A program made the position numbers and the translations under genes. Positions 3,001-47,825 of a stretch of 64,000 nt of DNA are shown here, piece by piece (position 1 is the first letter of the stretch; every line of letters starts with the position of its first letter). The notes below the pieces were generated by a model. The model was given only the letters and a program-made list of their open reading frames with translations, was not told where the DNA came from and did not search any database. Location of the stretch: the NCBI GenBank assembly GCA_903880015.1, contig CAIRNS010000011.1:1-64000 (forward strand), written 5' to 3'. The DNA comes from an uncultured Elusimicrobia bacterium. Its GTDB lineage: Bacteria > Elusimicrobiota > Endomicrobiia > Endomicrobiales > CAIRNS01.

Positions 3001-3372
3001 GATGTCGCGCAGCCACGCGGTGTCGACCTGCCCCCGCGCGCCCTCAAGATATATCTTTTCGATTCCCCGCCGGGACTCTATCGCTCCCAGCACGCCGGCT
3101 ATGTTGCGTTGCACTTCTCCATTGCAATGCATATCCTGAATTATGACCACCAACCCGTCGGACCCGTTATCACGCTGCGTTTCTACCCGCCCAAACGATG
3201 CAGGAATAATCAATCCTAATCCCGTATCCTTGCTCAGTACGCTACCCGCAAAAAGCCCGCCGCTCACCGCTTCTATCGCCCCAACAACTGATGGGCTGAC
3301 GATGAGACTCGCCGTCAGAAGAAGTGCTAACGCTTTGCGCACCATGATGAGGTTCAGATACCGGTATTTCAT
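1..3372 (-). CDS. Giant exported/membrane ORF 1, 3' end beyond window (TraB/TIKI-like, HExxH, P-loop ATPase)
   Basis: The first 1124 codons are seen; the C-terminus lies off the left edge. Start ATG follows GGGAGG at 5-nt spacing and overlaps the upstream stop as ATGA. Residues 1-25 form a hydrophobic signal or anchor. Residues about 70-480 contain a QDMHC motif (His82) and a GGFHTAG motif (His462), resembling the TraB/GumN/TIKI fold; that assignment is inference. Hydrophobic stretches lie at about 655-700 and 733-772. A VDHELYHW motif (HExxH, His947/His951) suggests a zinc peptidase-like site. Near residue 1088 a Walker A motif, GDAGTGKD, starts a P-loop domain like the MoxR/AAA+ group. The order signal, QDxHC, GGFH, membrane segment, HExxH is shared with the giant ORF at 33679-42570, so the two are paralogous in their N-terminal halves. 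Catalytic activity of each part is unproven. Confidence 0.85.
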   Translation of the reverse strand, partial: MKYRYLNLIMVRKALALLLTASLIVSPSVVGAIEAVSGGLFAGSVLSKDTGLGLIIPASFGRVETQRDNGSDGLVVIIQDMHCNGEVQRNIAGVLGAIESRRGIEKIYLEGARGQVDTAWLRDIADTDRRQKLATALMDKGYLTGAEYYCATSAHKAELSGLENQVLYESNLKRLTRLLAGKQSSAGLIANMRRNLDTVKDRYYNRRQKQIARLIAANGTGSISAEKYYRLLEKLARAGAIEMTRYPNISAFLLLQGMHREINPRRINRELRQLLAALKKTMPFRAYAALTALANRPDEQDNFYDAVYSAALSGNIALERDMASLNGFMQYRQISARLHLTRLIAEENALIRDIMRANADTRSARDVAFMVYFMEILANVVDTQVTAEDYRYYTTNRTEFQSLWNQYAYDGSMARLDGVIKELDAYNTTNLARNAVFMDTIREAVNGAGGRRTSVMVCGGFHTAGMQALLDRARISYAVITPRTGGDAVTSGATYARVAREQGDILAQTLALYNLSQCLVSENNGLKTSGDKEVLISAAEIKLQQLIADKSSMTKDSFTAAMNSVAEEWNRDMGARLGPIEYRGSVAERDGLAGIFIVNGLALRFVWRDGKMTFAGQEERPLAIGAAAVKARWGLAAYRRYIEQIAPRIESILFPLTGMVIMPVAAYYMGLGLVAGMGAGVLWATVGFAFAHVIVDWIHRGLDSTSRDGRSTLDDDYRNFNEKLLASIGLGLPYVIPGLLSVIVTLAVTMPLIAIPVLTAAFISVVVINESVTRTHGMYNAGRIRNATPIELMKSVFAHAGGLVRLFAKSWGTALIQPIPRVRTVAGNDTGKRSRLTHVLRKQNELNVSSRYVGAWKVALVSGNPVCERSENDDQWGAVVEQQQEDQLQETVASVLAGYPATKPFTIVVSEGYGVLGSMDMQAGVMYVDALALQEGNAILLAAAVDHELYHWNNPEATEETTVRRTQNFIAALESTQRSALRGVIEAEYGRSIAQALGNGGDAAALANQMAVTAADRAGIENRVQYFSNRDGKHWIVIDGEVEYALEKKTPKDPAQYNGILKWTPSGLDTIRELLRARALGEHVLLVGDAGTGKDWLAQAYGELMGEEPVVVSLSSETEGQEMV

Positions 3373-3875
3373 GTTTTCCTCCCAAAAGAAAAACCGGCCT
3401 TTGCCTGCAGGCCGGTTACCAAAACTTTCTTTACACATGACACTACTGCTGTATCGCCGCGCGCCAGCGATATATGTCCCGTCTTTATCATCTCTAATCC
3501 GCCGGTTGCTCCGGACGGGGCACCGCGGCAACAAAATAATTTCCTCTGCTGATCAATCGGCGGGACAGTGTTCCCAACTTCCGGAATTGATTGGACCCGC
3601 ATAACTAATACCGAGCGGAAAAAAAGGGGCGCACAGACACGCTCATCGCCGGTGTACCCGGTTCCTGATTGTCGATCGGCGGGTGCCGTTATTGATCCCG
3701 TGTTCACTGCATCTACCGACCCTACCATATCGCACATCAATTGCGCCGACTGCTCTGCGGTTAGTAATCGATAGGGTGACTGCGCCCACGCTATGCCCCC
3801 GGGCACACACAAGGATGCCGTCACTATTGACAGTGTTATCAGGCAAGATGAAATTAACTGCATCAAGCTTTTCAC
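3369..3875 (-). CDS. Small secreted protein of unknown function, coupled to giant ORF 1
   Basis: A 168-residue ORF starting with GTG, preceded by GGGAG at about 11 nt. Residues 1-31 are a clear signal peptide ending in a GIAWA cleavage site, so the product is exported. The mature part has several cysteines and no family I recognise; its start (SPYRLLTAEQSAQL) weakly recalls leader-type motifs, but I do not assign it. The stop overlaps the start of giant ORF 1 as ATGA, indicating translational coupling. The last codons run through a terminator-like hairpin, so translation of this gene could control read-through into the giant gene. An alternative in-frame ATG at 3863 lacks a well-placed ribosome binding site. 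A 7-T run in the coding strand near 3619-3625 is a possible frameshift site; I cannot rule out that the second half is read in another frame. Confidence 0.6.
   Translation of the reverse strand: MKSLMQLISSCLITLSIVTASLCVPGGIAWAQSPYRLLTAEQSAQLMCDMVGSVDAVNTGSITAPADRQSGTGYTGDERVCAPLFFRSVLVMRVQSIPEVGNTVPPIDQQRKLFCCRGAPSGATGGLEMIKTGHISLARGDTAVVSCVKKVLVTGLQAKAGFSFGRKT
3382..3417 (-). terminator. Terminator-like hairpin inside the end of the small ORF, just before giant ORF 1
   Basis: On the minus strand AACCGGCCT (3417-3409) pairs with AGGCCGGTT (3400-3392) across an 8-nt loop, followed by TTTTTCTTTT. The structure lies in the last codons of the small secreted ORF and about 10 nt before the GGGAGG ribosome binding site of giant ORF 1. 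It looks like an intrinsic terminator or attenuator that a translating ribosome could melt. Confidence 0.65.
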
Positions 3876-28815: not shown

Positions 28816-28860
28816 ATTCGAAAATATATCGTCGTCATTGGATTGCGCGAGGCAACCGCA

Positions 28861-30627
28861 ATGCTTCTCAGGAAAGGTATCCCGTGCCGATTGTGCGGGA
28901 TTCAAGGTTTAATACTGATGGCCGCAAGATTCCCTTACTACAAAGAAATCGCTTTGCTGTTGCTGATTCTTGCCGGCTACATATTGCATAGTGTTTATAT
29001 GGGAAGCTTCACCGTCAATTGCGCCACTGACATTAGCTCCCTTGTCGCTGCACAAGACATCACAACGAAACTTGATAGTTTCTCCTCTAAGATTGGGCAA
29101 CCAATCCATAATCTAATCACAGCATTTCAGCATTCACGACTGCCTCCGCTGTATGCTCTGAATGCGGTTCTCATCACAAAGATTATCGGCAGAAATTGGA
29201 CAATGATGAATATTGTTAACAATTTCCCCTATCTGTTCATACTACTGGTGTTCTGCTATCTAACCGGCAGGGAAATCAAGGACAAAGAGACCGGCATACT
29301 GGCAAGCGTATTGATAGCATTATACCCTCTTGTATACGGCAGTTTCCGCTTGTACTGCATAGATTTTTCCATCATGGCAATGACTGTCATGTCCTTTTAT
29401 TTTTTGTTACGGTCGAAAAACTTTCAAAAGACCCCAGAAACTATCGTGTTCGCATTGTGCTGTGGCTGGGGGATGCTGCTTAAAGACCCCTTTGGATGTT
29501 TCATAGCTGGCCCGACATTATACGCCCTTTTTTGCCGATGTAACCATCCACAAAATCCCGAGAAGGGAATACTGAGCCGGCCCGCAAATATTCTCATCGC
29601 CGCAGTGCTATTTTTGATAGTCATTTCCCCCTATTATTTCAACATCACTATTCTAAAATTTATATTGATCGACCGTCAAATCAGTAACGAACCCGCGCAG
29701 CATGCATGGTACACTTTCGATAATCTGAGGTTATTTACTACTGGCCTGTGGGAGAACCAGCTGAGCCCTCCGTTCTTTATTGCTTTTATCATCGGGCTGT
29801 ATTTTGTTGTCAAACATAAATATCTGACATCTGTAAAACCAATGATTTTTCTGTGGATCGTCGTGCCGACAGTTATAGTACTCTTTATGAACCAGCAAAA
29901 AAGCGTGCGCTATGTACTCCCCCTGATGCCGGCATATGCTCTCGTAACTGCAGCTGGGTTGAGAACCATACTATGGACGCGCCGCGGCATCGTGATTGTC
30001 TGTATCATTCTAGTGGCAGGGCTCCTTCAGTACCGATATATTAGTTATGGATCTTCAGATATTTCTGTAAACATTATGGGCAAACAGTGGCATTACTTCT
30101 CCCGCTCTGAACTGAATCAAAAGTTTTCCGATATGCAGAACACCGGAGAGCGTATGCAGGGAATATATCAGGGGCTCATGGAAAGATATAGACAATCGGG
30201 CAATAAGAGCACACTGAATTTATTGATTCCCCTACGAATAACCAGCGGATTCACTGACTTTATTGATATATATTTCTGGTTTCAAAACAGCAAAACAACT
30301 ATCAATACAATCTCTTTGTTGGAAAAGGGGATTGAAACACTCGAACAAATCTATCAAGATCGGAACAAGATCGACGCCATTCTTTTCCTGCTGCCTAAAG
30401 AAAAGATCCCATTAATCCGCAGAGATTTTCATTTGCCTTTTGCTATTCTGCAGGAATACTATTCGCCATGGAATTCAAACATAATAAGAAATTACCAGTT
30501 GATGACCGCCGCTGATTGGGCTGTGCATGAAAGGACTTGGAATAAACTTGAACGAGAATTCCCCCAGAAAAAGCTTTTGTATAACGATGCCGAAATCGAG
30601 GTATATCTTTTTAGCCGTTCTCAATGA
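28861..30627 (+). CDS. Multi-spanning membrane glycosyltransferase-like protein (GT-C / ArnT-PMT type)
   Basis: A 588-residue integral membrane protein. Residues about 25-50, 90-150, 150-215, 230-265, 300-325 and 340-400 are hydrophobic and predict roughly 10-12 membrane helices, followed by a soluble C-terminal domain of about 190 residues. This is the layout of GT-C enzymes such as ArnT and dolichyl-phosphate-mannose transferases, which use polyprenyl-phosphate sugars. The first loop has acidic residues (NCATDISSLVAAQD), but the usual catalytic motif is not clear, so the assignment is tentative. ATG 28861 has GAGG 8 nt upstream; longer reading uses TTG. Base composition is more A/T-rich than the neighbours, suggesting a later arrival between tatD and the radical SAM gene. 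Confidence 0.65.
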   Translation: MLLRKGIPCRLCGIQGLILMAARFPYYKEIALLLLILAGYILHSVYMGSFTVNCATDISSLVAAQDITTKLDSFSSKIGQPIHNLITAFQHSRLPPLYALNAVLITKIIGRNWTMMNIVNNFPYLFILLVFCYLTGREIKDKETGILASVLIALYPLVYGSFRLYCIDFSIMAMTVMSFYFLLRSKNFQKTPETIVFALCCGWGMLLKDPFGCFIAGPTLYALFCRCNHPQNPEKGILSRPANILIAAVLFLIVISPYYFNITILKFILIDRQISNEPAQHAWYTFDNLRLFTTGLWENQLSPPFFIAFIIGLYFVVKHKYLTSVKPMIFLWIVVPTVIVLFMNQQKSVRYVLPLMPAYALVTAAGLRTILWTRRGIVIVCIILVAGLLQYRYISYGSSDISVNIMGKQWHYFSRSELNQKFSDMQNTGERMQGIYQGLMERYRQSGNKSTLNLLIPLRITSGFTDFIDIYFWFQNSKTTINTISLLEKGIETLEQIYQDRNKIDAILFLLPKEKIPLIRRDFHLPFAILQEYYSPWNSNIIRNYQLMTAADWAVHERTWNKLEREFPQKKLLYNDAEIEVYLFSRSQ

Positions 30628-33664: not shown

Positions 33665-33678
33665 AGCAGTGGAGGAAC

Positions 33679-36600
33679 ATGACAATTAAACTAATGAACA
33701 ATCGTTCTCGGAAATTTATTTTGCGCGCTGCACAGACATCAATAGCCAGAATTTTTTTCTCACATTTCACGAGAATCACTGCGGTAGTGACCTGTGTGTG
33801 TTTTTTATACAGCGCGGTCCTGAGCCAGACAATTCATGCCATAGTCACGCCGGCAGAAGAAACGCACAGTTCATTGAATGCGTATTCGGGTGAGTTTAGC
33901 GTTCCCTATGCGCTGGGAAGAATTACTGACGCACAATACATGCGCAGCGACCGTGTTGTAATAAATATTCAGGACCTGCACTGCCATGCTGAGGTGCAAA
34001 GGAACATCGGGAAAATACTCGGACTCATTGACCGGCAGTACGGATTATCCAAGGTATATGTGGAAGGCGGCGTAGGCCCAGTAGACACTTCGTGGGTACA
34101 GGCGCTTGATAACCGGAAATACCGCGAAAAAGTTGTGGAAACGCTCATGGACGGCGGCGTTTTAACCGGTTCAGAATATTATTCGATACTGAGCGGCAAA
34201 TTCAATCTTCTGCAGGGGTTGGAAGACAAAACTCTCTACACCCAAAACCTTGCGCGTCTGGGAACCATCATCAACCAACGAGCAGAAATGCAGTCCCGAT
34301 TACCTGAGTTTGCAAAAAGCATAACAACCATTCAAGACCACTACTATACATCACGCAACCAACAACTAAACCGGATAATCGCCCGCCACGATGCCGGCGC
34401 ACTATCTGCCGAAAAATATCTCCGCCTGCTGCTGCAGCTGGCAAAAAGAGCGGATGCGGACCTCAACGAATACCCCAACACGGTATCCTTCGTACGGCTA
34501 TTTGAACTGCAAAAAGGGCTAAAATCAAAGAAGATAAACAAACAGCTGGTGCATTTTTTAGGAACGCTAAAAGAGAAGTTACCGTACGCGACATACCGTC
34601 GTTTGATGGACAACTCTTCCGGCAACGCGCGGGCAGAAGAGCTGTATGCGGCGCTAAAGCGTGCGTCAAACGAGCATGCGCTCGACTTGACCAGTGAGTA
34701 TAAGGAGCTACATCGCTTTTTCACCTTTGCAGATGAAAATCAGAACATAAACCCAGTCGCGCTTGTTCGTGAAGAAAAAAAGCTTATCAGCGACCTGCAC
34801 GATCGGTTCAGCGCAAGCGCGGCAGAGCGCGAAGTGGCTTATATAGCAGACTTCTTTGAATATGTGGAAAGATATGTCAACAACAAGTTGTCTGCGGAAG
34901 ATCACCGCTATTATGTGAGCCATCAGGCAAAATTTCGACAGTTGTGGGCGAAATATACAACAACAAACACCCTGCCCGCACTGGAACCATATTACGCAGT
35001 TCTGGACAAGTTCTATGCTGTCAACATCGAACGCAATAACTCCTTTTTGAAAAATATTTTTTCAAACGACCTTCCTGCGCCGGCAGCCGGCGGCGTTCTT
35101 CGCGTTCCCCGCGTTGACCAACTTGCCACAGTAACCGAGTCACTGAAATCAGCCAAAGAAATCATTGTGGTGGTTACCGGCGGATTCCACACCGACGGGC
35201 TGACCCATCTGCTCAAAGACCGCGGCATATCATACCTAGTCATCACCCCTTCAATTACCAAAGATGCAAAAATAGCAGAAGCGACATACAGCGAACTTGC
35301 CAAGCAGCAGGCGGCGGTGTTCGGCGCACAGGCGTTTGCCCTGATGCTCGAATCGACCTTTTTGAAATCAAAAAAATCAACCGCTGACATTAATGCATCC
35401 GATTTTGCCGAAGCGCGGGCGTGGGCGGAGAAACAACGCATACCGGCGGCACAAATCGAACAATTTATCAATAATTTTATAACCAGGAAAAAGGCGAATG
35501 AAGTATTTGCCGAAACCTATGTCCGGCAATGGTGGAAAACGGAAAAGAATCAGGGTAAAGACAGTGCCGCTTTGCTGGCAGAACTCAATAAATCTCTTGA
35601 GGGGACTGAAGCCAAGGCCGCACTGTCTGATGATGAATCTTCCCTTACTTTAACCAGCGGCGACGCACCGGTCACGATACGCTTGACGGATGCAACAGGG
35701 CAATATGTCTCCTCCGACGGTTCCCGCATTGCAGCGAAACGGGAATTGCGCGAAGTAGCGATTGTAGCCGCGGTCGCCACCTTATTTTTTATCATCAGCG
35801 CGATCGTGCCCAATGTCTCAGGGATTAGGACTGCTATCACCGCGCTTACGCTCGGCGTTGCCTTGTGGAAGGCGATAAATGGACTGACGATGCAGTATCA
35901 GGCTAGTGTCATTGAGCAAGCGGTACAGAAGGCACAAGGCTATCCTGCAATCAAGGCCCGCACAGACATGATCGCGCCCGGCATGACGGTTGCTAATTAT
36001 TTTGAAGATATTAAAACCAGGTATAAACTTCCTCAGAACATTCTGCTGACAATCCTATCCGACCAACCGGACAAACCGGCGATGGCGTATCATCAACAGG
36101 AAAAAGCACTCAATAGAATCGGTATCAATCCGCGGGTTTTCTATGAAATCGAACGGATAGACAAAAATGTTGCCCGAAGCATCATTGTTATGCATGAACT
36201 CACTCATCTGCGTGAAGAAGCAGTGTTTACCAAGATGTCGGGGAAAATAACCACAGCATTGCAACGACTTACTGCTTCGGGCGGCGGCGAGCTTATCGCA
36301 TACCGCAGGCAGATGAGACATGCATATTTGTTATACCCAGGAATGGTTCGGTCTATATTCAAGCGTATGACCTTCACATTAAACCCCGGTAAAGGCACGC
36401 CGGTTGCGCCACAAGGCCCACCCGCGCAAAAAAAACCATTCTTTAGTTTTCCCGGTGTCACGGTTACAAACCTTGACGATGTTAAGAAAATCGTCAGAGA
36501 AACAATGATAGAGCAAGGAAAAGACAGAAATGAAAACACCTCTGATTTTGACAGCGAAGTCACCTACTACTCCGTGTTGCTTTGGACGGTCAATAACGGA

Positions 36601-39600
36601 GATCCTACAGCAATAACCATTGAAGACCAAAAAATCGCGGAATCATTTTATGCTACTGCTAATATGACCGATCAAGAGCTCAACGATTTCGGGGTGGTGG
36701 AATATGACAATATGCAAGAACCGACTGCACAGGAACGAAAAAATATATTGATGGTCAATCTTGGACTGAACGCCGGGTTGGGCAGCAGCGTTAAGCGCGG
36801 CGAATACAAAAAAAATCTTATTAAACAATTCCTGAATCTCATCAGCCCTGGAATAGGAGCGAAAGGAACCGACCTCTATTTCCTTCTTCAGATAAACGGG
36901 AAGGAAGTACCCGTCAATATATCTGAGATAAAACTTTTACAGGCCGCCGTAAACGCTAAAATGTTCGGCAAACTGGCCGTTCGTGAAGTGGTAAATATCG
37001 AGTCAGCTCCCTCAATCCTTGGCTTGTATGACCAGATGAACATTTACGGCAGAAATGGCATTGATCATCCTTGGAAAAAATTAACATACCGGCAAATATT
37101 CGCCCAGGAAGGCATTCAATTGGACGAACCCCATCGCGTGGGATTTCTTCCCGGATTAAACCGTGAAATCCCTAAAAAGATGCCGACCGATGAAGAACAA
37201 AAAATCGAAAACTTACGCGCGGCGGGAGAAAGCAAAAAAAGTTTTCCTCCTCAAATTACCGCTTCAGGCAGTCATGGACAAGTGATTTTTTGGCTACTCA
37301 AAAACCTGCTTGACCCTGAATTTGAGGAAAAACAGGGATGGGCAGAAGAAGGGAAGAGTACCATTATCGCCATTACCAATTCTGACGGAGTAGGCAATCG
37401 CGTCGATGCAAAAATAGCTTCGCATGTCGCACGGACCAATACACCCATTGCCATGCTGGCGACTCCCAGGACTACTGATGATGTCAAGGGAGGTATTTTT
37501 GGTCTTTTAACAAAAGGTTCAACCCGTTTTCCCTGGGTACTTGAATTAGCGGTAGCCGCCAAAAATAAGGAAAAGGAAGTATTCTTAAGAAAGGGAGTGG
37601 AGAAAGACGGCGCTGCGCCGGGAGACGGTGGCAGATTCGGCAAACAGCTATTTAACACCAATTCCGTAGTTCTCAATCTTTCCGTCCTAGGGCCTTTTGT
37701 GCGGGAACTGAAAGATTATATGGGCCTGGATGAGTACCTGGAATTGATCACCCCGAGCCCTATCGTAAGCGACAAAATGCAGGGTGCGACACCGTATGTG
37801 CAGATTGAGGGTGCTATGGGCACATCGATTCTAAAAATCAATGCTTATTTGGAATCTAAAATAATATTGGGCGATCCAACGATCATGGCGTTGATGAAGA
37901 AATATTCCATCCCAACACAGAACTTCAAGTTTTTGCGGATTATTAACATACCTCGCAAATTTTTTGCTCCCGTAAAGTTTTCCTGGGACTTTATTTATCA
38001 AACTCTGACATCATTGATGAAAATCAATACGGAAACATGGATTCCTGACATGATGCGAGAAGACACATTCCCCAAAATAATGCCTGATGGAGATGACGGA
38101 ACCTCGAAATGGTATCTGGAAATGCACAATTGCCAGCAAGCATTCGGACAGGCTGATCTGAGCAAATGCACCAGCTTCGATGCTTCAGGTATTAGGGAAG
38201 AATGTGCCGTCACATGGTCGGATGCCGCCTTTGTAGGCACCTTTGCCATTTCGAGCAGATACAAAGGGTTGATTAATCTTAATGAAGCACTCAACGATTC
38301 ACTGCTTCCCGGAAGAACAAAAGGATTCCTCTATTTTGAGAACGCAGTAATTGACATAGATGAAAAGGGCATACTCACATTTTCTACCGATGTTGGCGGC
38401 AGCAAAAAACAATGGACATTACAATATCTCAGCAACGGAAAGTTCAGAGAGTTGGTCACCACGCAGAAAGATTCCGGAGCGATATCGTTTACCAGTACGG
38501 TTACGGGAGACAAGGCATTCATCTCGCACGCGAGAATTAAATCGCTCGGGACATATCTCATCAAATTCGGCACCGCCGGTTGGCGCCCTGAAACAAAGGA
38601 TTTCACTCTTGCCCGCGTTCAACTTTTTGCTGAGGCATTAGCAAGAACATATGAAACCGAGAACGGCGACGACCGCAGCAGGGCAATTCTTATTGGTTTT
38701 GATCCCCGCAAGAACAACAAGGAATTCGTCAGAGAAATGGCAAGTATTCTTACGGGACACGGCATCTCGGTAGACATCATCGCACAGGAACCCACCATCA
38801 CGCCGGCATTAGCTATTTTTGCCGCAGAAAAACGCTATGGCAAAGATTATCATTATGTGGTAAATTTTTCCGCCAGCCACAGCAGTAACCGATATAGCGG
38901 CATCAAACTGCTCCTGCCTAACGGCAGACCCGCACCGGATGCTACCACACAGACAATCCAAAAAATTGTGAATGAATTAGGGGATAATAAGAATAATGAG
39001 GCTATCCCGTCGCTTGTATACGATGATGCAAAAGCAATTGGTTTGCTGCACGAAGTCAGCGTAACGGAGGCGGTTAAAGAATATGTTGACCCCTTCATCA
39101 GAGCCAAGCGAGATTCCGGCGCTTGGGACAAAGTAACAGCATACCTTGCGGCTGACGACCGGGCCTTTATAACTTTCGACGCCATGCAGGGCGGCTCAGT
39201 AAGTTATTGGGAAGCAATAATGGATCGCCTGCTCATTGATGTAAACGATGCCCGCAAACAACTGAACCTGCCACCGCGCACGGCAGATTCACTCTTCAGG
39301 ACCGTTCATCGCGCCAACGCTGATCCGGCGTTTAGCGAAGTTGGCGGGGTGCCAAACCCTTATACGCGTAAAAACATAGCAACTATCCTCGGTCTGCTTA
39401 ACGAAAACTCTCGGCCTGATCATGAGCTTGCGATTATGGTCGATTGCGATGGAGATTCAGTTGCTGCCGCTGATAAAGAAGGGACGCTGAAAGCAAACGA
39501 GATCGGCGCAATCCTTCTCTATGAAGCGGTCAGAAAACAGTGGACTAACACGGTGAAACAAGACGAATGGCCCGATCTATTGATCACTCAGTCAATCGCA

Positions 39601-42570
39601 ACAAGTGGCATGGCACACGCATTAGCAACCTATTTCAACAACCAAAATGAAAAAAACCATATCAGCGCTCGGATAAAATTTACACCGGACACCGAAGTTG
39701 GATTTAAAAGTTTACCGCCGGCGATGGATGACCTTGCTGCAGCGGGAAAAAAAGCGGATCGTCCTTTTAAACGCGTCCTGGGCTTTGAATCAAGCGGGCA
39801 TGTCTGGGCTGATGGATGGACTGGCATGGATGACGGATTATTCGTAGGATTCGACCTCATCGCCGCCGTGGCAGGCTGGAATGAGGACAAAAACAGTTTA
39901 CCACCGTCATTTAAGGGATTATCGCAGATTCGCAAAGAGATTGATGCCCTCATCGGTTCCCGCTATGCTTTCGAAGAGCAGTCTGTCGAGGAATCAGCAG
40001 CCGCACGATCATCGGCATTGTTTAAGCTTAATGAAAATGAAATTACAAGAACCATAAATCAATTGCTTGAATTGAATAATTATCCTGCCAAGGTTCAAGA
40101 ATGCATACTGACTGACGGAGTAAAAATAATTCTCACCAACGGCGACTGGCTCCTTATACGAAAATCTGGCACTGAACCCCAGTTCCGCATCGCCACCCAA
40201 GCAATCATGCCCAACGATGCCCCCCCAGAATCATATCGCAATAGCACGCTTTTTGCCATCTGTAAAGAACTATTGGGCGCTACGGAAACAAACGACGGGG
40301 ATAGCGATGAAGCAGCGCTCAATGCAAGTACAAACCCGCTGCCGGCTGATAAAGAAGTACTGCAACCGGTCATTAAGGCTATCTCATCGCCCTTGGCAGC
40401 GGCTGTCCTTCTACTCAACAGTGCTATTGCCGAAAATATCGGCGGTGATCGACCAATTTTTGCGGCCGCCCCGGTAATCTCAAAAATGCTGTGGGGCGTT
40501 TTGATGAAGGACGCGACCCCTCTTTCCGGACTCAAACGACGCGCTGAAGTGACCGGCGGCGTGTTTATCGCCGCCAGAACGGCTTCTTCTCAGCAAGAAT
40601 GGACTGACCTCCTGAGACAAACAATAATAGCCGCCTCGAACCATGCTAATCGTCAGTCCATAGTTAATGACGGTTTATTTGTCGTTATCTCTCAAGAAAC
40701 AGGAGAGGCGAACTTTACAACGGGGAACGGAGAGAAAACTTCTTCAATCCTTGCCAGACAAATCACCTGCGGCAACGGCTATATCGTTGAATTCATATCT
40801 CCCTACTTTGAAGACGGTCGCGATACGATACCGCAGCAATTGCTTACATTCATCAGCGAAGATCCGCGGGTACGGGCGGTCTTTCCCGATTCGATTGGCA
40901 CCGAAAACCGTGACAGCGGGGCGCCGTATGCGGTCATCGAGAATAGCAATATGGATGAACGGTCCCTGGCGGCACAACCCGTACGCTTTGCCGCGATGGG
41001 ACAAGCAGTGCGCATCAACGCCCTGGAGCATGCGGACACTCCTGAACTTCTTGGCAGTATCCGTGATATTGAGACAGCGTTCATTAACCGCAACGCGCGA
41101 CAAGTGTCCGCACGCCCTTTCCTGACAGCGGGCGTCATAATCGACACTTTCGAAGATCTACATCGGTTAAATTCTGCTCAGCGGCTTGAGGAACTCAGAG
41201 ATTCAGCACCGGGACACAGCAATGACGGCACCAGTTATTTAGCCGTATCCCTGAAGCTCAGCCCCGCGATACTGGCGGAAGCGCTTAAACCCAACAGCAA
41301 GACACACCGGGAGTTGGCGGAGATAGTCACTAAAATGCATGCGGCGAAATTGAGCGCAACGATAAGTATTGCCATCGAAAACCTCGATACTCCGGAGGGG
41401 TTTGCCCAGTTCCATGCGGCCGCCGGCATACTGCTCGCAGAAAATCAGATTGACGCCAACAGCATCACCCTGCGCCAGGAAGCCATGAACCGGGAGCAGG
41501 TCAATAAACTTGTTCCTGCTGATTTGAACACCGTTGTCCATGGCGTTAAAATCAATGCTCTGCTTGCGGTTCGTTTTGAACAATCTGATTTTTATATCGT
41601 CCGCCCTGCGTTCGCTGAAGAAGGCATCGGGTATGACATGACCTATGTGTTAGGCAGTAATTTGGTGTCAAGCGTTCCCGCACGCGCAAGCTTAGAATTA
41701 ACGCGGGAGACCGCGCAAGAAACAATTGTTGTTGACCCGCAAATCGCTGCAAAAGAACTTGATGCATTGCGCGCGAAAACAAGCGCAGTTTGTCTCGGAG
41801 ACGATATGCGTGCTGCTGTCCGCGATGATGCATCGCTGGAAGACGGAATACGCGCATTCATACTGTCGCTCTTTAGAGCAAAGAAAACAGATCCGCAGTA
41901 TCAGTTTAACGAAGGGTTTGATGAAGGATTTGGCGCCCGTGCTGCAGCTGCGGATACTGAAATCAACCGACTCCTGACATTCTCATGGTTCCCCAATGCT
42001 GACCTTGATCGGAACGTAGCAGCGTTGCGCTTGGCAGAACAATGCATCGCCCAGCTGACGCTGCCAATAACCTCGAAAAAACCCGGAGACCCGCTGCGTG
42101 ACAGCCGGCTCCTCGGCACACTATATGCAAAGCTGGGAACATTGCTCATAAAAGACACTCCCGCCGGTATGCCGATTGATAATGTCCGGCTGCAAGCGCG
42201 CGCGCAAGCGGCGCGCTACATTAGTAAACTGCAATCACCCGGAACTGTAGCAGGGAGTTCGGCGGCGGGCACCTTTGACAGAGATACACGGCAACTAAAC
42301 AGGTTGGGTGAACAGGCAGAATCAGTACTCAAAGAAGCTACCAACGGGTCGTCTAAAGCATCAATCATACAACCCCGGGCGCAGGAGCTCATCAACCGAC
42401 TGGGCGCATATATGGATATGCAGGATGTGGATAATCCCTCATACAGCATAGCAGCTCAATGGATTATACAATTACTGCCCTATGGCAAGTTTGAGTTCAA
42501 AACAACCATCAGGAAATTTACTCAAGAATCACTGCCCGAAGCAATGCGCGCGGTACTGGAAGCTGCCTAA
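33679..42570 (+). CDS. Giant ORF 2: TraB/TIKI-like + HExxH + UDP-sugar pyrophosphorylase + phosphohexomutase fusion
   Basis: An uninterrupted 2963-residue protein. Residues 1-55 are basic then hydrophobic (signal or anchor). Residues 95-510 hold QDLHCH (His101/His103) and VVTGGFHTDG (His504), like TraB/GumN/TIKI folds. Membrane segments follow at about 693-735, then HELTH (839-843). Residues about 1020-1450 match the UDPGP family: NLGLNAGLGSS (1026), GSHGQV, TNSDGVGN (1234), DDVKGG (1267), FNTNS (1325), QIEGAMGTS (1375) and FFAPVK. Residues about 1628-2190 match the phosphohexomutase family: FGTAGWR, SASHSS with the phosphoserine position Ser1733, DCDGDS (1922-1927) and RKSGTEP (2161). The last 750 residues are unassigned. 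Together the two enzymes would turn hexose 6-phosphate into a UDP-sugar. GGAGG precedes the ATG. Activity and cell location are inference. Confidence 0.85.
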   Translation: MTIKLMNNRSRKFILRAAQTSIARIFFSHFTRITAVVTCVCFLYSAVLSQTIHAIVTPAEETHSSLNAYSGEFSVPYALGRITDAQYMRSDRVVINIQDLHCHAEVQRNIGKILGLIDRQYGLSKVYVEGGVGPVDTSWVQALDNRKYREKVVETLMDGGVLTGSEYYSILSGKFNLLQGLEDKTLYTQNLARLGTIINQRAEMQSRLPEFAKSITTIQDHYYTSRNQQLNRIIARHDAGALSAEKYLRLLLQLAKRADADLNEYPNTVSFVRLFELQKGLKSKKINKQLVHFLGTLKEKLPYATYRRLMDNSSGNARAEELYAALKRASNEHALDLTSEYKELHRFFTFADENQNINPVALVREEKKLISDLHDRFSASAAEREVAYIADFFEYVERYVNNKLSAEDHRYYVSHQAKFRQLWAKYTTTNTLPALEPYYAVLDKFYAVNIERNNSFLKNIFSNDLPAPAAGGVLRVPRVDQLATVTESLKSAKEIIVVVTGGFHTDGLTHLLKDRGISYLVITPSITKDAKIAEATYSELAKQQAAVFGAQAFALMLESTFLKSKKSTADINASDFAEARAWAEKQRIPAAQIEQFINNFITRKKANEVFAETYVRQWWKTEKNQGKDSAALLAELNKSLEGTEAKAALSDDESSLTLTSGDAPVTIRLTDATGQYVSSDGSRIAAKRELREVAIVAAVATLFFIISAIVPNVSGIRTAITALTLGVALWKAINGLTMQYQASVIEQAVQKAQGYPAIKARTDMIAPGMTVANYFEDIKTRYKLPQNILLTILSDQPDKPAMAYHQQEKALNRIGINPRVFYEIERIDKNVARSIIVMHELTHLREEAVFTKMSGKITTALQRLTASGGGELIAYRRQMRHAYLLYPGMVRSIFKRMTFTLNPGKGTPVAPQGPPAQKKPFFSFPGVTVTNLDDVKKIVRETMIEQGKDRNENTSDFDSEVTYYSVLLWTVNNGDPTAITIEDQKIAESFYATANMTDQELNDFGVVEYDNMQEPTAQERKNILMVNLGLNAGLGSSVKRGEYKKNLIKQFLNLISPGIGAKGTDLYFLLQINGKEVPVNISEIKLLQAAVNAKMFGKLAVREVVNIESAPSILGLYDQMNIYGRNGIDHPWKKLTYRQIFAQEGIQLDEPHRVGFLPGLNREIPKKMPTDEEQKIENLRAAGESKKSFPPQITASGSHGQVIFWLLKNLLDPEFEEKQGWAEEGKSTIIAITNSDGVGNRVDAKIASHVARTNTPIAMLATPRTTDDVKGGIFGLLTKGSTRFPWVLELAVAAKNKEKEVFLRKGVEKDGAAPGDGGRFGKQLFNTNSVVLNLSVLGPFVRELKDYMGLDEYLELITPSPIVSDKMQGATPYVQIEGAMGTSILKINAYLESKIILGDPTIMALMKKYSIPTQNFKFLRIINIPRKFFAPVKFSWDFIYQTLTSLMKINTETWIPDMMREDTFPKIMPDGDDGTSKWYLEMHNCQQAFGQADLSKCTSFDASGIREECAVTWSDAAFVGTFAISSRYKGLINLNEALNDSLLPGRTKGFLYFENAVIDIDEKGILTFSTDVGGSKKQWTLQYLSNGKFRELVTTQKDSGAISFTSTVTGDKAFISHARIKSLGTYLIKFGTAGWRPETKDFTLARVQLFAEALARTYETENGDDRSRAILIGFDPRKNNKEFVREMASILTGHGISVDIIAQEPTITPALAIFAAEKRYGKDYHYVVNFSASHSSNRYSGIKLLLPNGRPAPDATTQTIQKIVNELGDNKNNEAIPSLVYDDAKAIGLLHEVSVTEAVKEYVDPFIRAKRDSGAWDKVTAYLAADDRAFITFDAMQGGSVSYWEAIMDRLLIDVNDARKQLNLPPRTADSLFRTVHRANADPAFSEVGGVPNPYTRKNIATILGLLNENSRPDHELAIMVDCDGDSVAAADKEGTLKANEIGAILLYEAVRKQWTNTVKQDEWPDLLITQSIATSGMAHALATYFNNQNEKNHISARIKFTPDTEVGFKSLPPAMDDLAAAGKKADRPFKRVLGFESSGHVWADGWTGMDDGLFVGFDLIAAVAGWNEDKNSLPPSFKGLSQIRKEIDALIGSRYAFEEQSVEESAAARSSALFKLNENEITRTINQLLELNNYPAKVQECILTDGVKIILTNGDWLLIRKSGTEPQFRIATQAIMPNDAPPESYRNSTLFAICKELLGATETNDGDSDEAALNASTNPLPADKEVLQPVIKAISSPLAAAVLLLNSAIAENIGGDRPIFAAAPVISKMLWGVLMKDATPLSGLKRRAEVTGGVFIAARTASSQQEWTDLLRQTIIAASNHANRQSIVNDGLFVVISQETGEANFTTGNGEKTSSILARQITCGNGYIVEFISPYFEDGRDTIPQQLLTFISEDPRVRAVFPDSIGTENRDSGAPYAVIENSNMDERSLAAQPVRFAAMGQAVRINALEHADTPELLGSIRDIETAFINRNARQVSARPFLTAGVIIDTFEDLHRLNSAQRLEELRDSAPGHSNDGTSYLAVSLKLSPAILAEALKPNSKTHRELAEIVTKMHAAKLSATISIAIENLDTPEGFAQFHAAAGILLAENQIDANSITLRQEAMNREQVNKLVPADLNTVVHGVKINALLAVRFEQSDFYIVRPAFAEEGIGYDMTYVLGSNLVSSVPARASLELTRETAQETIVVDPQIAAKELDALRAKTSAVCLGDDMRAAVRDDASLEDGIRAFILSLFRAKKTDPQYQFNEGFDEGFGARAAAADTEINRLLTFSWFPNADLDRNVAALRLAEQCIAQLTLPITSKKPGDPLRDSRLLGTLYAKLGTLLIKDTPAGMPIDNVRLQARAQAARYISKLQSPGTVAGSSAAGTFDRDTRQLNRLGEQAESVLKEATNGSSKASIIQPRAQELINRLGAYMDMQDVDNPSYSIAAQWIIQLLPYGKFEFKTTIRKFTQESLPEAMRAVLEAA

Positions 42571-43200: not shown

Positions 43201-43254
43201 TAACTGTACGGCCGGCGTAGCATGCGGAAACCAGAGCCAAAAAGGAGACATTTT

Positions 43255-43860
43255 ATGCCATCAGTTCTCAGTAAAAAAGAAACAATGCGCAAGCATATCA
43301 TTGTCGCCGCAATCCGAGTTCTTAACGATAAAGAATACCATGAATGTCTTATCGATATAATTGCAAAAAAAGCCGGTATAGGCAAGGGGACAGTATACTT
43401 GTACTTTAAAAGCAAACAGGAACTGTATTATTCCATACTTTTTGAACTGGTACATGAAGCAAGAAGAATCGCCGGCGCAGCAATAAAAGGCAGTAGCACG
43501 CCCCCCGAACAATTGCGCATGCTTCTTGAACAACTAAACGGCTTCATTGATTCACACGGCAACGCTTTTATAATAGCCAGAGCGGAAGCAGGAAATTTCA
43601 AAGGAAAAATGCTGGTGTTATCCACACAATTGTACGGTGGGCTATTGGAACAGATAGGGAAAATATTTGAAGACGGCGTCACTAAGAAAATATTTAATAC
43701 ATATCCGCCGACATTTATGGGCGCGCTGATTATGTCTTCATTGTTGACAGCAGCAAAATATAGACAGATGAACAGACCGGGGGCGCGCGCGGTTACCCCC
43801 GCACTCCTGGCGGAAATATACATGAACGGCATTTGCACAAAAAACAAGAGGAGCCAATGA
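43255..43860 (+). CDS. TetR-family transcriptional regulator
   Basis: A 201-residue repressor-type protein. The N-terminal helix-turn-helix is standard: RKHIIVAAIRVLNDKEYHE then IDIIAKKAGIGKGTVYLYFKSKQELYY (residues about 12-60). The C-terminal ligand domain is hydrophobic and not assigned. AAGGAGA at 8 nt supports ATG 43255; an in-frame start 33 nt upstream is less suited. It is the first gene of an efflux cluster whose promoter carries the palindromic operator, so it probably represses the cluster until an inducer binds. The stop overlaps the next start as ATGA. Confidence 0.9.
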   Translation: MPSVLSKKETMRKHIIVAAIRVLNDKEYHECLIDIIAKKAGIGKGTVYLYFKSKQELYYSILFELVHEARRIAGAAIKGSSTPPEQLRMLLEQLNGFIDSHGNAFIIARAEAGNFKGKMLVLSTQLYGGLLEQIGKIFEDGVTKKIFNTYPPTFMGALIMSSLLTAAKYRQMNRPGARAVTPALLAEIYMNGICTKNKRSQ

Positions 43861-44846
43861 TGACAACACCTAAGAACCCCATGGTAAAAAAATCTGATAC
43901 TGACGGTACTATCGACGAACCTATAACGGATGTCACCCTGTACACCAGGAAAAGAGTAATGATTCCCCTTATCTCTGCCGGCGCGGTGGTAGTGATTGCA
44001 TGTGTGTACTGGTATTTCAGTATTGCCGGCACGGTGTATACCGATGATGCGTATGTTGACGGAAACAGGGCAATCATCAGCTCGAAATACGCGGGCAGGA
44101 TTGCCGAACTCTCGGTTGAAGAGGGAGACAGCGTACAGGCAGGAAAGATTCTGGTCAAGTTGGATGATTCCGACCTGCGCGCGCAGGAAAAACAGTCGCA
44201 AGCGGCGCTTGACTACGCGCGCCACACCCTTGAACTGGCTCAGGTCAACGGCACGAAAAATGAAGAAGATTATGCGCGGGCAGAATCCCAGTTTACCAGC
44301 GGGGTTATTACCAAAGAACAGTTTGACCACGCAAAGAAATCGTTGGAAGCTGCTCGGGCGCAGAATGCCATTGCCCAGGCGCAGGTTGCTTCCGCATCAG
44401 CGCAGCTGGGAGTTGTCCAAACCCAGCTCAAAAACATCATCATAGAATCCCCCATGAACGGAGTTGTTGCCAAGAAGTGGGCTATGCCCGGAGATGTGGT
44501 GCAGGTCGCTCAGCCAATATTGACGGTATATGACCTGGATCATCTGTGGGTTACCGCAAATCTTGAAGAAACAAAGTTCGGCCGCATTCGCTTAAACCAG
44601 ACGGTGTATGTGTATCTCGACACTTATCGTAGCCACGCATTTATCGGAAAAGTAATTCAGCTCGGCGCCAACACCGCCTCGCAATTCTCGCTGATTCCCC
44701 CCAACAACGCTTCGGGAAACTTTACCAAAGTCACTCAACGGATCCCGGTTAAAATATCCATCGCGTTAAAGGACGATTCTGGACGGAACGGACCCGTCAG
44801 GATCCTTCCCGGCATGTCGGCGGAAGTACGGCTTAAAATAAAATAA
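43857..44846 (+). CDS. EmrA/HlyD-type membrane fusion protein
   Basis: A 329-residue periplasmic adaptor. After a short cytoplasmic part, one membrane helix spans about residues 35-57. Then VYTDDAYVDGNRAIISSKYAGRI (in the family this reads TDDAYV...) starts the barrel-sandwich lipoyl domain, followed by a coiled-coil hairpin (residues about 105-190) and the second lipoyl half, IIESPMNGVVAKKWAMPGDVV. This is the EmrA pattern. The start ATG overlaps the tetR stop, with AGAGGAG upstream. It links the inner-membrane EmrB-like pump downstream to the TolC-like channel. Confidence 0.9.
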   Translation: MMTTPKNPMVKKSDTDGTIDEPITDVTLYTRKRVMIPLISAGAVVVIACVYWYFSIAGTVYTDDAYVDGNRAIISSKYAGRIAELSVEEGDSVQAGKILVKLDDSDLRAQEKQSQAALDYARHTLELAQVNGTKNEEDYARAESQFTSGVITKEQFDHAKKSLEAARAQNAIAQAQVASASAQLGVVQTQLKNIIIESPMNGVVAKKWAMPGDVVQVAQPILTVYDLDHLWVTANLEETKFGRIRLNQTVYVYLDTYRSHAFIGKVIQLGANTASQFSLIPPNNASGNFTKVTQRIPVKISIALKDDSGRNGPVRILPGMSAEVRLKIK

Positions 44847-44847
44847 T

Positions 44848-45702
44848 ATGGCAACCATTCCCCATCACACGATAAAAAATAAACTAATAGAACAAATGCC
44901 GTCGCTCCACCACGAGCACGCTTCTTATAAATGGTGGGTGCTTCTCAGCATAATGATAGGTACCTTTATCGCCGTTCTTGACGCGACTATCGTTAATGTG
45001 GCCCTGCCGAACATCATGGCATCATTCGGGACAACGGTCGACAAAATCGAGTGGGTGGTGACCGCCTACATGCTTGTTTTCGGCATCGTTTTACCGGCTT
45101 CCGGCTGGATTGCTGACCATCTCGGATACAAAAGGACCTACTTTGCGGCACTATTCATTTTCACCTTCGGCTCATTTTTGTGCGGCTTGTCGTGGGATGA
45201 AACATCCCTGATTTTTTTCAGAGTAATCCAGGGATTCGGGGCCGGGTTCATCATGCCGGTTGGCATGGCAATCGTGATACGGGAGTTCCCCGTCAATCAA
45301 AGAGGCATGGCGCTGGGTTTTTGGGGTGTCGCCGCGGCAGCGTCGGTTTCATTCGGTCCATTGATAGGCGGATATCTTATTGATAATGTAAGCTGGCAGG
45401 CAATATTCGATGTCAATGTTCCCGTCGGCATATTCGGCATGTTCGCGACCTTGATAATCCAGCGAGAATATCGGGCAGCGGCGGCACGGAATTTTGATTT
45501 TCTGGGATTTATTTCCATGGCCGTGTTTTTGACGGCCCTGCTCCTGGCGTTGTCCGAAGGTAACGCATCATGGAATACCGGCGGATGGACTTCGAATTTC
45601 ATCCTTACCTGTTTTGCCATTTCCGTAATCGGGTTCATCATCTTCATATACGCAGAATTGACCGTTGAACACCCCATTCGTCGAACTGAAACTGTTCGCT
45701 GA
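44848..45702 (+). CDS. EmrB/DHA2-family MFS transporter, N-terminal part (frameshifted)
   Basis: The first 284 residues of a 14-helix drug:H+ antiporter of the DHA2 family. The motif LDATIVNVALPNI in helix 1 is the DHA2 hallmark, and GWIADHLGYKR in the first cytoplasmic loop is the MFS motif A. The frame ends in non-family residues (RRTETVR) right after ELTVEHP. Reading continues in the +1 frame at 45665-46465. Removing one C from CCCC at 45673-45676 restores the family-like text EHPFVELKLF. It follows the adaptor gene by 1 nt. Confidence 0.8.
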   Translation: MATIPHHTIKNKLIEQMPSLHHEHASYKWWVLLSIMIGTFIAVLDATIVNVALPNIMASFGTTVDKIEWVVTAYMLVFGIVLPASGWIADHLGYKRTYFAALFIFTFGSFLCGLSWDETSLIFFRVIQGFGAGFIMPVGMAIVIREFPVNQRGMALGFWGVAAAASVSFGPLIGGYLIDNVSWQAIFDVNVPVGIFGMFATLIIQREYRAAAARNFDFLGFISMAVFLTALLLALSEGNASWNTGGWTSNFILTCFAISVIGFIIFIYAELTVEHPIRRTETVR

Positions 45703-46465
45703 TTTCAACTTTGGCGTGACGAATCTGATTTTCTTTATCTTTGGTTTGAGCTTGTTCGGTAGCACCTTTCTCCTGCCGCTGTACCTGCAAAACTCGCTGG
45801 GATATACCGCCTACCAGGCAGGGCTTGTGTTCCTGCCAGTCGGCATACTGCAGGGTATCGTCACGCCTGTGGCCGGCATGATGTCGGATAAATGGGACGC
45901 CCGCGGCCCGGCAATGGTCGGCATTGTTCTGCTGGCAGTCAGCTTTTATCTTAACAGCACGATGTCGCTTTTTTCCGAACATACGCAAATCATGCTGCCG
46001 CTGTATTTGCGAGGCGTCGCCATGGGGCTTCTCTTTACGCCTTTGAGCCTACTGGCGTTAACCGGCATTCCACGGGACCGCATGGCGCAGGCATCGGGGC
46101 TGTTCAATGTTGTTCGGCAAATCGGCGGCAGTTTCGGTATCGCGATATTCGGCATGATTCTCACGCGCAGAAGCATCTATCATATGGCGATGTACGGGCA
46201 GGCAATAGATGTCAACGGGCCAATGTATAAATCGGTGGCTGCCAATCTTGCCCGTTTTGTCCAATGGACTGATGGCAATACTGCGCGGTGGAGCTCGATG
46301 CAGGCAAACGCTATTATCGGCGCCCATGTCGGACAACAATCGTTTGTGCAATCCGTGGATGATGCATTTTTTGTCGCCGCCGTAGTAAGCGCCGTTGCTG
46401 TATTCCCCATCCTTCTCTTGCGGCGGCCGAAAAAAAATACTGAAACCGTCGCCGCGGTTGAATAG
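45665..46465 (+). CDS. EmrB/DHA2-family MFS transporter, C-terminal part (frameshifted)
   Basis: The remaining 266 residues, holding about 7 membrane helices of the same transporter, starting at FVELKLFADFNFGVTNLIF, which matches the DHA2 linker and helix 8. The frame overlaps the first part by 38 nt and has no plausible start of its own. The sum of both parts, about 539 residues, equals the normal EmrB length. A one-base insertion in a short C run is the cause; it may be a sequencing error, a true inactivating mutation or a slippery site. Confidence 0.75.
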   Translation: MNTPFVELKLFADFNFGVTNLIFFIFGLSLFGSTFLLPLYLQNSLGYTAYQAGLVFLPVGILQGIVTPVAGMMSDKWDARGPAMVGIVLLAVSFYLNSTMSLFSEHTQIMLPLYLRGVAMGLLFTPLSLLALTGIPRDRMAQASGLFNVVRQIGGSFGIAIFGMILTRRSIYHMAMYGQAIDVNGPMYKSVAANLARFVQWTDGNTARWSSMQANAIIGAHVGQQSFVQSVDDAFFVAAVVSAVAVFPILLLRRPKKNTETVAAVE

Positions 46466-46493
46466 CCCCACACTACACTTTGCGAGGGATTCC

Positions 46494-47825
46494 ATGAAAA
46501 AAGTATGCAGTATGCTCATCATTACAGCGTTTGTTTCCCAAGGGGCACTGTGGGCGGAACCGGCGAGTCAATCTGTTGCCGGGCAAAAAGAATTGTCGCT
46601 TGAAAGAGCGATTACACTACTCGTAGAAAACAATCCTGCGATACGAGAGGCCGAACAGAGCGCTGAGGCAGCCGTCGCCCGAAAGCGCCAAAAAGCAGGC
46701 GATCTGTTCCCTCAGATTGACTTGGCGGCAAGTTATACAAAATTATCGCCGGACCCCTCCGTCGATTTTCCGGGTCTCGGCTTGATACAGTTCTTCCCGG
46801 AACAGAACTACGACGCACATATTGTCGCGCGGCAAACGCTGTTTGATTTCGGCAAAAAATGGGATACGTATAAAGCCACGAAATACTCCTCAGAAGCGGC
46901 GAAGAACGCCGCCCGGGCGGTCAAATCAAATCTCAAACTGCAGACAGTGTACACATTCTATTCCATACTTCTCCTGCAAAAAAGCATTGAAGTTCAGAAT
47001 CAGGAACTCAAATCCCTCAACGAATATTTGGAAATTACGCAAAAAAAACTTGCCAGCGGAACAGCTACGGGATTTGATGTTTTAACGATACAGGTCAAGC
47101 TCGAGGAAGCAAAAAACAAGAAAATCGACTTGGAAAATAATTGCGCCAAACAATTGATTACGATGAGACGCCTGATATGCCTGCCCGACAGCGACTCGGA
47201 AGCGGTGACCGGGGACTTGCAGGTGCAGTCCGAGCCGATTGACACCGCATCGTTCCTTGCACTGGCGGCACAAGAGAGACCTGAATTAAAAGCGGCGCGC
47301 GCGACCACTGTGAGCGCAAAAATGTTGCTCGGATCATCGCGCTCAGAACGATATCCCAGTATTAATCTTTTTTATGAATACGGATATAAAAACGGCTATT
47401 TGCCCGACCTTGCGGCTATCGTACAGGATACGGTTGCAGGCGCCCGGTTTGATATGCCATTGTTCGGCGGGTTTACAACGTATAACAAAATCAAGGAAGC
47501 GCAGGCACAGCACGCATCACTGCAAGCACGTGAAAAAGATATGGAAGGACTGGTTATCGCCGAGGTAAAGCAGGCCGCTTCGGATGTAGAAACAAACGCT
47601 AAAAAAATCGATGCCGCTGTGCTCCATGTAAAGCTTGCTCAGGAGGCTGTATCTCAAGCGAAGGTACGCTTTGAGAACGGGGTTATCACCAACCTCGACA
47701 TGCTCAACGCGGACAACGCGCTGGCAGAGGCAAAACTTCTCCAACTACAGGCAAATTTCAATTATATCGTCAGTCGCGAAACACTCAAGAAAGCAGCCGG
47801 GATTGAACCCGGGACAAAGAATTAA
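46494..47825 (+). CDS. TolC-family outer-membrane channel of the EmrAB-type cluster
   Basis: A 443-residue OEP-family protein. The signal peptide is residues 1-20 (ending GALWA). LSLERAITLLVENNPAIREAEQSAE opens the first repeat, and a second repeat starts near residue 255 (LAAQERPELKAARATT); long heptad-rich helices in between fit the periplasmic tunnel. GCGAGGG precedes ATG 46494. It is the last gene of the tetR-emrA-emrB cluster and should complete a tripartite pump. A nested hairpin (GGTGCG/CGCACC, 47827-47860) follows the stop without a T tract. Confidence 0.88.
   Translation: MKKVCSMLIITAFVSQGALWAEPASQSVAGQKELSLERAITLLVENNPAIREAEQSAEAAVARKRQKAGDLFPQIDLAASYTKLSPDPSVDFPGLGLIQFFPEQNYDAHIVARQTLFDFGKKWDTYKATKYSSEAAKNAARAVKSNLKLQTVYTFYSILLLQKSIEVQNQELKSLNEYLEITQKKLASGTATGFDVLTIQVKLEEAKNKKIDLENNCAKQLITMRRLICLPDSDSEAVTGDLQVQSEPIDTASFLALAAQERPELKAARATTVSAKMLLGSSRSERYPSINLFYEYGYKNGYLPDLAAIVQDTVAGARFDMPLFGGFTTYNKIKEAQAQHASLQAREKDMEGLVIAEVKQAASDVETNAKKIDAAVLHVKLAQEAVSQAKVRFENGVITNLDMLNADNALAEAKLLQLQANFNYIVSRETLKKAAGIEPGTKN

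Follow-up and report, generated by a model that had tools for sequence, protein, structure and literature searches.

Why would two enzymes of nucleotide-sugar synthesis be built into one giant protein behind a signal-like N-terminus, and what could they make there? The question is raised by an open reading frame (ORF) of 2,963 aa at 33679-42570 on the forward strand of the window, the whole 64,000-nucleotide stretch of Elusimicrobiota DNA that was analysed. A sequence-only reading of this DNA had proposed that a UDP-sugar pyrophosphorylase and a phosphohexomutase are fused in one exported or anchored protein.

The giant open reading frame and its family

The ORF is a single, uninterrupted and stop-free frame, and a GGAGG ribosome-binding site (33671-33675) lies just 5' of its ATG. 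Most of the genomes searched are multi-contig drafts, which would favour an assembly or binning artefact joining separate genes. Against this, codon-position base composition stays even from one end of the ORF to the other, one frame runs over 8.9 kb, giants that carry a pyrophosphorylase, a mutase and the same N-terminal domain are present in separately assembled genomes, and selection acts across the giants. An assembly join, a possibility that the sequence-only reading itself had raised, is rejected on these grounds, and an artefact of either kind is very improbable. Upstream of the ORF lies a PMT_2-type glycosyltransferase gene (28843-30627, forward strand), and downstream a TetR, HlyD, MFS and outer-membrane efflux set (43222-47825, forward strand). 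The ten neighbours scanned around the ORF include no further nucleotide-sugar genes, and no RNA families were found near it.

Relatives were found by a search of Elusimicrobiota genomes (G-numbers below, G000 being the window's own) with the central part of the ORF, which retrieved giant ORFs from numerous genomes within the window's order, followed by alignment of their N-terminal domain. They share ~560 N-terminal residues (ND; 33691-35385, forward strand), the family-defining domain, with 24-37% identity to the window and the motifs IQDLHCH, VEGG and TGGFHTDG. The window ORF matches the ND profile with an E of 7.3e-231; because the window contributed to the underlying alignment, it is the 24-37% identity that counts as independent evidence. 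ND is present in 70 of the 341 genomes of the phylum, mostly Endomicrobiales, with Endomicrobium, Ruminimicrobiellum and other Elusimicrobiota among the named relatives, and ND-bearing ORFs reach 11,814 aa. The window's own genome has ND at about 16 places, the ORF being one such paralogue; another member, with ND, HExxH and an AAA_5-like stretch at its cut end, is truncated by the window edge (1-3552, reverse strand). The ORF thus genuinely belongs to a family of giant modular proteins that are membrane-anchored and specific to Elusimicrobiota. ND has no sequence match in Pfam or PDB, and Pfam gave only scattered weak matches across the ND and protease-like region. An EreA/ChaN/TIKI-like fold was considered for ND; the fold-search match to erythromycin esterase EreC (E 0.1, prob 0.35) is non-significant and a weak lead only. 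G014, a single-contig genome of the same genus as G019, G022 and G024, is absent among the ND-matching genomes, and the giants seem to have been lost in this one Endomicrobium-like lineage.

Hydropathy, charge asymmetry and the ND alignment identify an N-terminal hydrophobic segment (residues 30-48; 33766-33822, forward strand), which follows a basic stretch and ends in a signal-peptidase-like IHA. The basic N-terminus, the hydrophobic segment and its AxA-like end are conserved in the family (charge asymmetry in 99 members), which makes export or anchoring of ND probable, and the earlier claim to this effect holds for the N-terminus. Hydropathy and charge analysis reveal a second membrane stretch at residues 693-738 (35755-35892, forward strand), one strong and one weaker helix, hairpin-like as in the relatives. 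A tight, charge-free hairpin lies between ND and cargo in 32 family members, and basic residues are concentrated in its flanks rather than its loop (mean K+R 2.4 ahead of the hairpin and 0.03 in the loop); such flanks would be predicted to face the cytoplasm. As the stretch mostly takes the form of a hairpin in relatives, by parity the enzymes stay on the side of ND, and the suggestion that it returns them to the cytoplasm is doubtful.

A gluzincin-like metalloprotease signature, H839-E840-x-x-H843 with E871 (36193-36291, forward strand), sits beyond the hairpin, and HExxH occupies this place between hairpin and cargo in many family members. HExxH was observed 60 times in 107 family ORFs, compared with 1.85 expected from shuffles. 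In 29 relatives selected for the motif, both the HExxH residues and E871 are invariant or near-invariant, with the nearly invariant glutamate 28 residues beyond HExxH. HExxH and a downstream glutamate, the hallmarks of gluzincins, are both present in the window ORF, in a region modelled at a pLDDT of ~50 with the fold unconfirmed. By its sequence, the region looks like a gluzincin-type metalloprotease. HExxH is missing from several enzyme-cargo giants, including the PGI-PGM giants of genus g10, and is therefore no general rule of the family.

The pyrophosphorylase and mutase modules

Pfam, alignment, a PDB profile search and motifs delimit the UDPGP-family pyrophosphorylase module at residues 1022-1461 (36742-38061, forward strand). 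Pfam matches UDPGP (PF01704) at residues 1224-1461 (E 1.1e-8, 34.7 bits, cut-off 22). The family's motif order GHG, NxD, KGG, NTN, E and PVK is kept, the first motif being SHG, and the conserved pyrophosphorylase residues are H1199, N1234/D1236, K1270, N1326/N1328, E1377 and K1433. The elements from GHG to E align across ten related UDPGP modules. A profile built from these ten retrieves UDP-glucose pyrophosphorylases from PDB (best E 2.3e-18) and no other enzyme; we take the matched entries to be the Trypanosoma/Leishmania-type, yeast, plant and human enzymes. The glycine-rich loop reads LNAGLGSSVKR (1030-1040), with A rather than the G of NGGLG at its third position and an unsure equivalence of its lysine. 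In the UDPGP tree, the module has an end branch of 1.53 and clusters with unfused UDPGPs of another class (support 86/82; 35% identity). It has motif order and active-site residues in common with the eukaryotic-type UDPGP family (PF01704), but differs as a divergent subfamily, with NAGLG for NGGLG, that is embedded in a giant ORF. Judged by these alignments, the module is a complete, predicted UDPGP-type pyrophosphorylase.

The alpha-D-phosphohexomutase module (residues 1628-2174; 38560-40200, forward strand) was delimited by Pfam, alignments, motifs and a Foldseek search with its model. Pfam matches PGM_PMM_I (PF02878) at residues 1629-1767 (E 3.7e-22, 78.9 bits, cut-off 22.5). PGM_PMM_II stays under its cut-off (17.1 bits; cut-off 29.3), and PGM_PMM III and IV, which are above cut-off in relatives, have no Pfam match in the window module. 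This weakens a claim to standard alpha-D-phosphohexomutase membership over the full length; the family assignment itself relies on domain I, the motifs and the fold. Alignments with other giants show S1733, D1922/D1924/D1926, E2037/S2039 and R2161/S2163/G2164/T2165 to be invariant; in the PGM/PMM family the corresponding residues are the phosphoserine and those that bind metal, sugar and phosphate, respectively. An R to S substitution follows the metal aspartates. An AlphaFold model from six sequences is moderate (pLDDT 59), with a weak C-terminal half, and Foldseek matches it to phosphoglucomutases and their kin in PDB (best 9du5, E 2.7e-17, probability 1.0). Among its kind the module diverges furthest, by a wide margin (end branch 4.27, top identity 28-30%), and it is separate from the order's small PGM genes. 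It also misses the NCBIfam GlmM/PGM equivalog cut-off (76.8 compared with 439 bits), its best match being Arch_GlmM, so no sugar is assigned to it. It shares the fold, as modelled, and all four active-site motifs with the PGM/PMM/GlmM family, and by alignment and model it is a complete, putative alpha-phosphohexomutase. Pfam finds no recognised domain in the C-terminal tail (residues 2201-2963; 40279-42567, forward strand).

These results bear out the fusion proposed by the sequence-only reading: both Pfam families are matched where it had placed them, UDPGP and PGM_PMM_I are above Pfam cut-offs, the mutase model leads to PDB phosphoglucomutases, and the active-site residues of both modules are kept in the alignments. 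All the motifs it had quoted are found in the right order and at the right coordinates: AGLGSS (1032), NSDGVGN (1234), DDVKGG (1267), FNTNS (1325), QIEGAMGTS (1375) and FFAPVK (1428) in the pyrophosphorylase, and FGTAGWR (1630), SASHSS (1731), DCDGDS (1922) and RKSGTEP (2161) in the mutase. Catalytic activity of the two modules is plausible from these residues.

Recurrent cargo and a glucan synthase companion

UDPGP of the window type also occurs unfused. In G062, G063 and G064, which belong to a different class, its small gene has a small PGM gene as immediate neighbour; in G065 the two lie ~2 kb apart. Within the window's order, PF01704 is confined to ORFs no shorter than 1,138 aa (13 genomes). 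Genes that are neighbours in one lineage and fused in another classically mark a functional pair, and UDPGP and PGM would thus be such a pair. A simple replacement of GalU by the fused UDPGP is unsupported: among 60 relatives, with or without UDPGP, canonical GalU is nowhere above its curated cut-off. Weak GalU matches occur in every genome, so another source of UDP-glucose is possible.

Pfam and our own profiles reveal recurrent enzymes behind ND in the relatives, namely PGI, PGM, UGP/USP-type pyrophosphorylases, PGK and adenylate kinase (ADK). PGI and PGM occur together in giants of G010, G011 and G058, and one G018 giant carries ADK, two PGM modules, PGK and PGI. G053 giants contain PGK, ADK, PGI, a PMM-like stretch and a methyltransferase, and G019 has ADK, aldose epimerase and PGI modules. 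Further ORFs, ND-bearing or giant, that join a pyrophosphorylase to a mutase occur in G019, G022 and G017 (C9, contig-limited), with three UDPGP-superfamily subtypes represented. The G022 giant combines a USP-type pyrophosphorylase, which matches solved UDP-sugar pyrophosphorylases in a PDB profile search (E 7.6e-34), with PGI and PGM; the G019 giant combines PGM with a third UDPGP-like type, for which the PDB search gave no match.

PGI is found in all 38 near-complete genomes, and those with a fused copy also have a standalone one. The fused copies are therefore additional, and compensation for a lost standalone PGI is rejected. A giant adjoins the standalone PGI gene in thirteen genomes around the window's, whose own PGI gene lies at another place. 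Fused and standalone PGIs split in the tree (100/99), and the fused ones share an N to L change beside the catalytic glutamate while the active-site R, E, H and K are kept. Purifying selection on the fused modules is strong (dN/dS ~0.10), as measured in three close relatives rather than in the window ORF: dN/dS is 0.09-0.10 for PGI, 0.10-0.14 for PGM and 0.17-0.43 for the spacer before PGI. One ORF (L047, G045:C58) has its PGI pieces in non-collinear order within one frame (profile 330-435, 2-333, 416-476) and is scrambled or chimeric.

A possible consumer of UDP-glucose is encoded in the same genome, outside the window. An ND giant of 8,368 aa (G000:C7:105448-130551; loci L171, L172 and L178) carries a 1,3-beta-glucan synthase module (PF02364, GT48; E 9.1e-23 and 1.1e-32) together with GH2-like and SecA P-loop-like stretches. 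A profile of five giant-ORF GT48 modules matches yeast FKS1/GSC2 with an E of 7e-52. The companion modules resemble fungal and plant FKS/callose synthases (GT48, PF02364) in this profile match, but they lie inside bacterial giant ORFs; the window ORF itself has no GT48. Ten other Elusimicrobiota genomes have GT48 in giant ORFs. GT48 and a window-type UDPGP lie within one ORF in G018 and G024, and in G058 GT48 and a PF01704 match share one ORF of 7,385 aa. The overlap of UDPGP and GT48 at the genome level, within ND-bearing genomes, is only suggestive (P 0.08), so the same-ORF cases carry the argument. Their occurrence in one polypeptide points to UDP-glucose as the probable sugar and a beta-glucan as the probable product. 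The earlier pathway logic, in which the mutase product is the pyrophosphorylase substrate, is strengthened by the recurrent giants, the adjacent small genes and these GT48 cases. To our knowledge, the GT48 synthase family is known only from eukaryotes; no bacterial case appeared in the literature searched. The giant-ORF modules would form a bacterial reservoir of this otherwise eukaryotic family.

Possible functions and related systems

The best reading, to which we give an even chance, is a membrane-anchored multi-enzyme protein that produces the UDP-glucose from which a glucan is made. Its N-terminal part would hold it at the membrane and act as a scaffold, the enzyme modules would find their UTP on the cytoplasmic side, and mutase and pyrophosphorylase would convert a sugar phosphate, possibly by channelling, to UDP-glucose for the glucan. 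In its favour are the kept catalytic residues, the recurrent pyrophosphorylase-mutase giants and those with PGI, PGM, PGK and ADK, the selection on fused PGI and PGM, the adjacent small genes, the absence of above-cut-off canonical GalU from 60 relatives, and GT48 in the companion and together with UDPGP in single ORFs. By signal peptide and hairpin parity, the downstream enzymes could be outside, where no UTP is expected. Their substrates (UTP, ATP and sugar phosphates) belong to the cytoplasm, and substrates and charges point inside; we favour a cytoplasmic position for the enzymes, with low confidence. The outside-pointing parity, the very divergent mutase with domains II-IV below Pfam cut-offs, the scores under the equivalog cut-offs, the possible other source of UDP-glucose, the origin of the dN/dS and PGI evidence in relatives and the only suggestive genome-level overlap of UDPGP and GT48 all speak against this reading.

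One alternative is an exported polyprotein from which the HExxH module, with or without ND, cuts out enzymes that act outside the cell or in a partner cell. The conserved signal-like N-terminus, the excess of HExxH with its conserved E871, and self-contained modules with fast-evolving spacers between them are consistent with this, cleavage may occur in some enzyme fusions of diatoms (PMC2173943), and many relatives, by their names, live in protists or guts. However, the g10 PGI-PGM giants have no HExxH, groundwater assemblies also yield relatives, no cleavage site or protease family was identified, and UTP is required; we consider such a polyprotein unlikely. It is equally unlikely that the modules are degenerate and serve as sugar sensors, binding domains or scaffolds. 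The long branches of mutase and UDPGP, the sub-cut-off PGM_II and the existence of scrambled PGI giants would fit, but the window ORF keeps all catalytic motifs, close relatives show the low dN/dS, and several enzymes of one pathway are retained together. An active pair might also handle another sugar and provide, for example, UDP-GlcNAc or UDP-galactose to envelope glycans, with no relation to a glucan synthase. The Arch_GlmM match of the mutase and the USP-type module in place of a UGP-type one in G022 favour this, whereas the window-type profile finds only UDP-glucose pyrophosphorylases in PDB and GT48 shares a polypeptide with UDPGP in three genomes; on balance this is rather doubtful, though it deserves some weight. 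Extending the UDP-glucose and glucan reading to the family is tentative: it is possible, though we would not presume it, that in Endomicrobiales and some other Elusimicrobiota PGI, PGM, UGP/USP, PGK, adenylate kinase and FKS-like GT48 are modules of giant membrane-anchored, possibly self-processed glucan-factory proteins.

A UGP/PGM fusion as such is already known from Phaeodactylum and Phytophthora, where it is cytosolic and a proposed supplier of a membrane glucan synthase (PMC2173943). It likewise unites phosphoglucomutase with UDP-glucose pyrophosphorylase on a single chain, but it is eukaryotic and consists of two enzymes with a spacer of 8-25 aa. The window ORF is bacterial, has ~170 aa between its modules and carries them behind a signal or anchor, a new domain and a protease-like module. 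Elusimicrobiota are rich in huge proteins, none of which was assigned a functional category in a survey (PMC11573180); adhesion was proposed for giant ORFs of Omnitrophota, which have no assigned metabolic functions (PMC10066038). Those are also giant ORFs, some with membrane segments, whereas here central carbon and nucleotide-sugar modules are recognised. Giant proteins go unmentioned in a genomic study of Endomicrobia (PMC11257099). We found no prior report of the module set, the ND family or the GT48 link in the literature searched, which covered few subscription papers, and these appear to be unreported. Conserved, recurrent and catalytically intact sugar-phosphate modules provide a first testable function for the unexplained giant proteins of the phylum. 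If the pathway is real, it would test whether one-chain enzyme fusion serves channelling to a membrane synthase, as suggested for diatoms.

Other ND giants contain SecA-DEAD, helicase, HD and other cytoplasmic-type domains. About 15 of the giants have a bundle of ~10 membrane segments, 1,100-1,900 aa after ND; the GT48 profile gave no support for glucan synthases among these many-TM giants. One giant ORF (L043, G018:C97) contains an exact 717-residue tandem duplication (residues 1770-2486 and 2510-3226), each copy with a whole PGM module.
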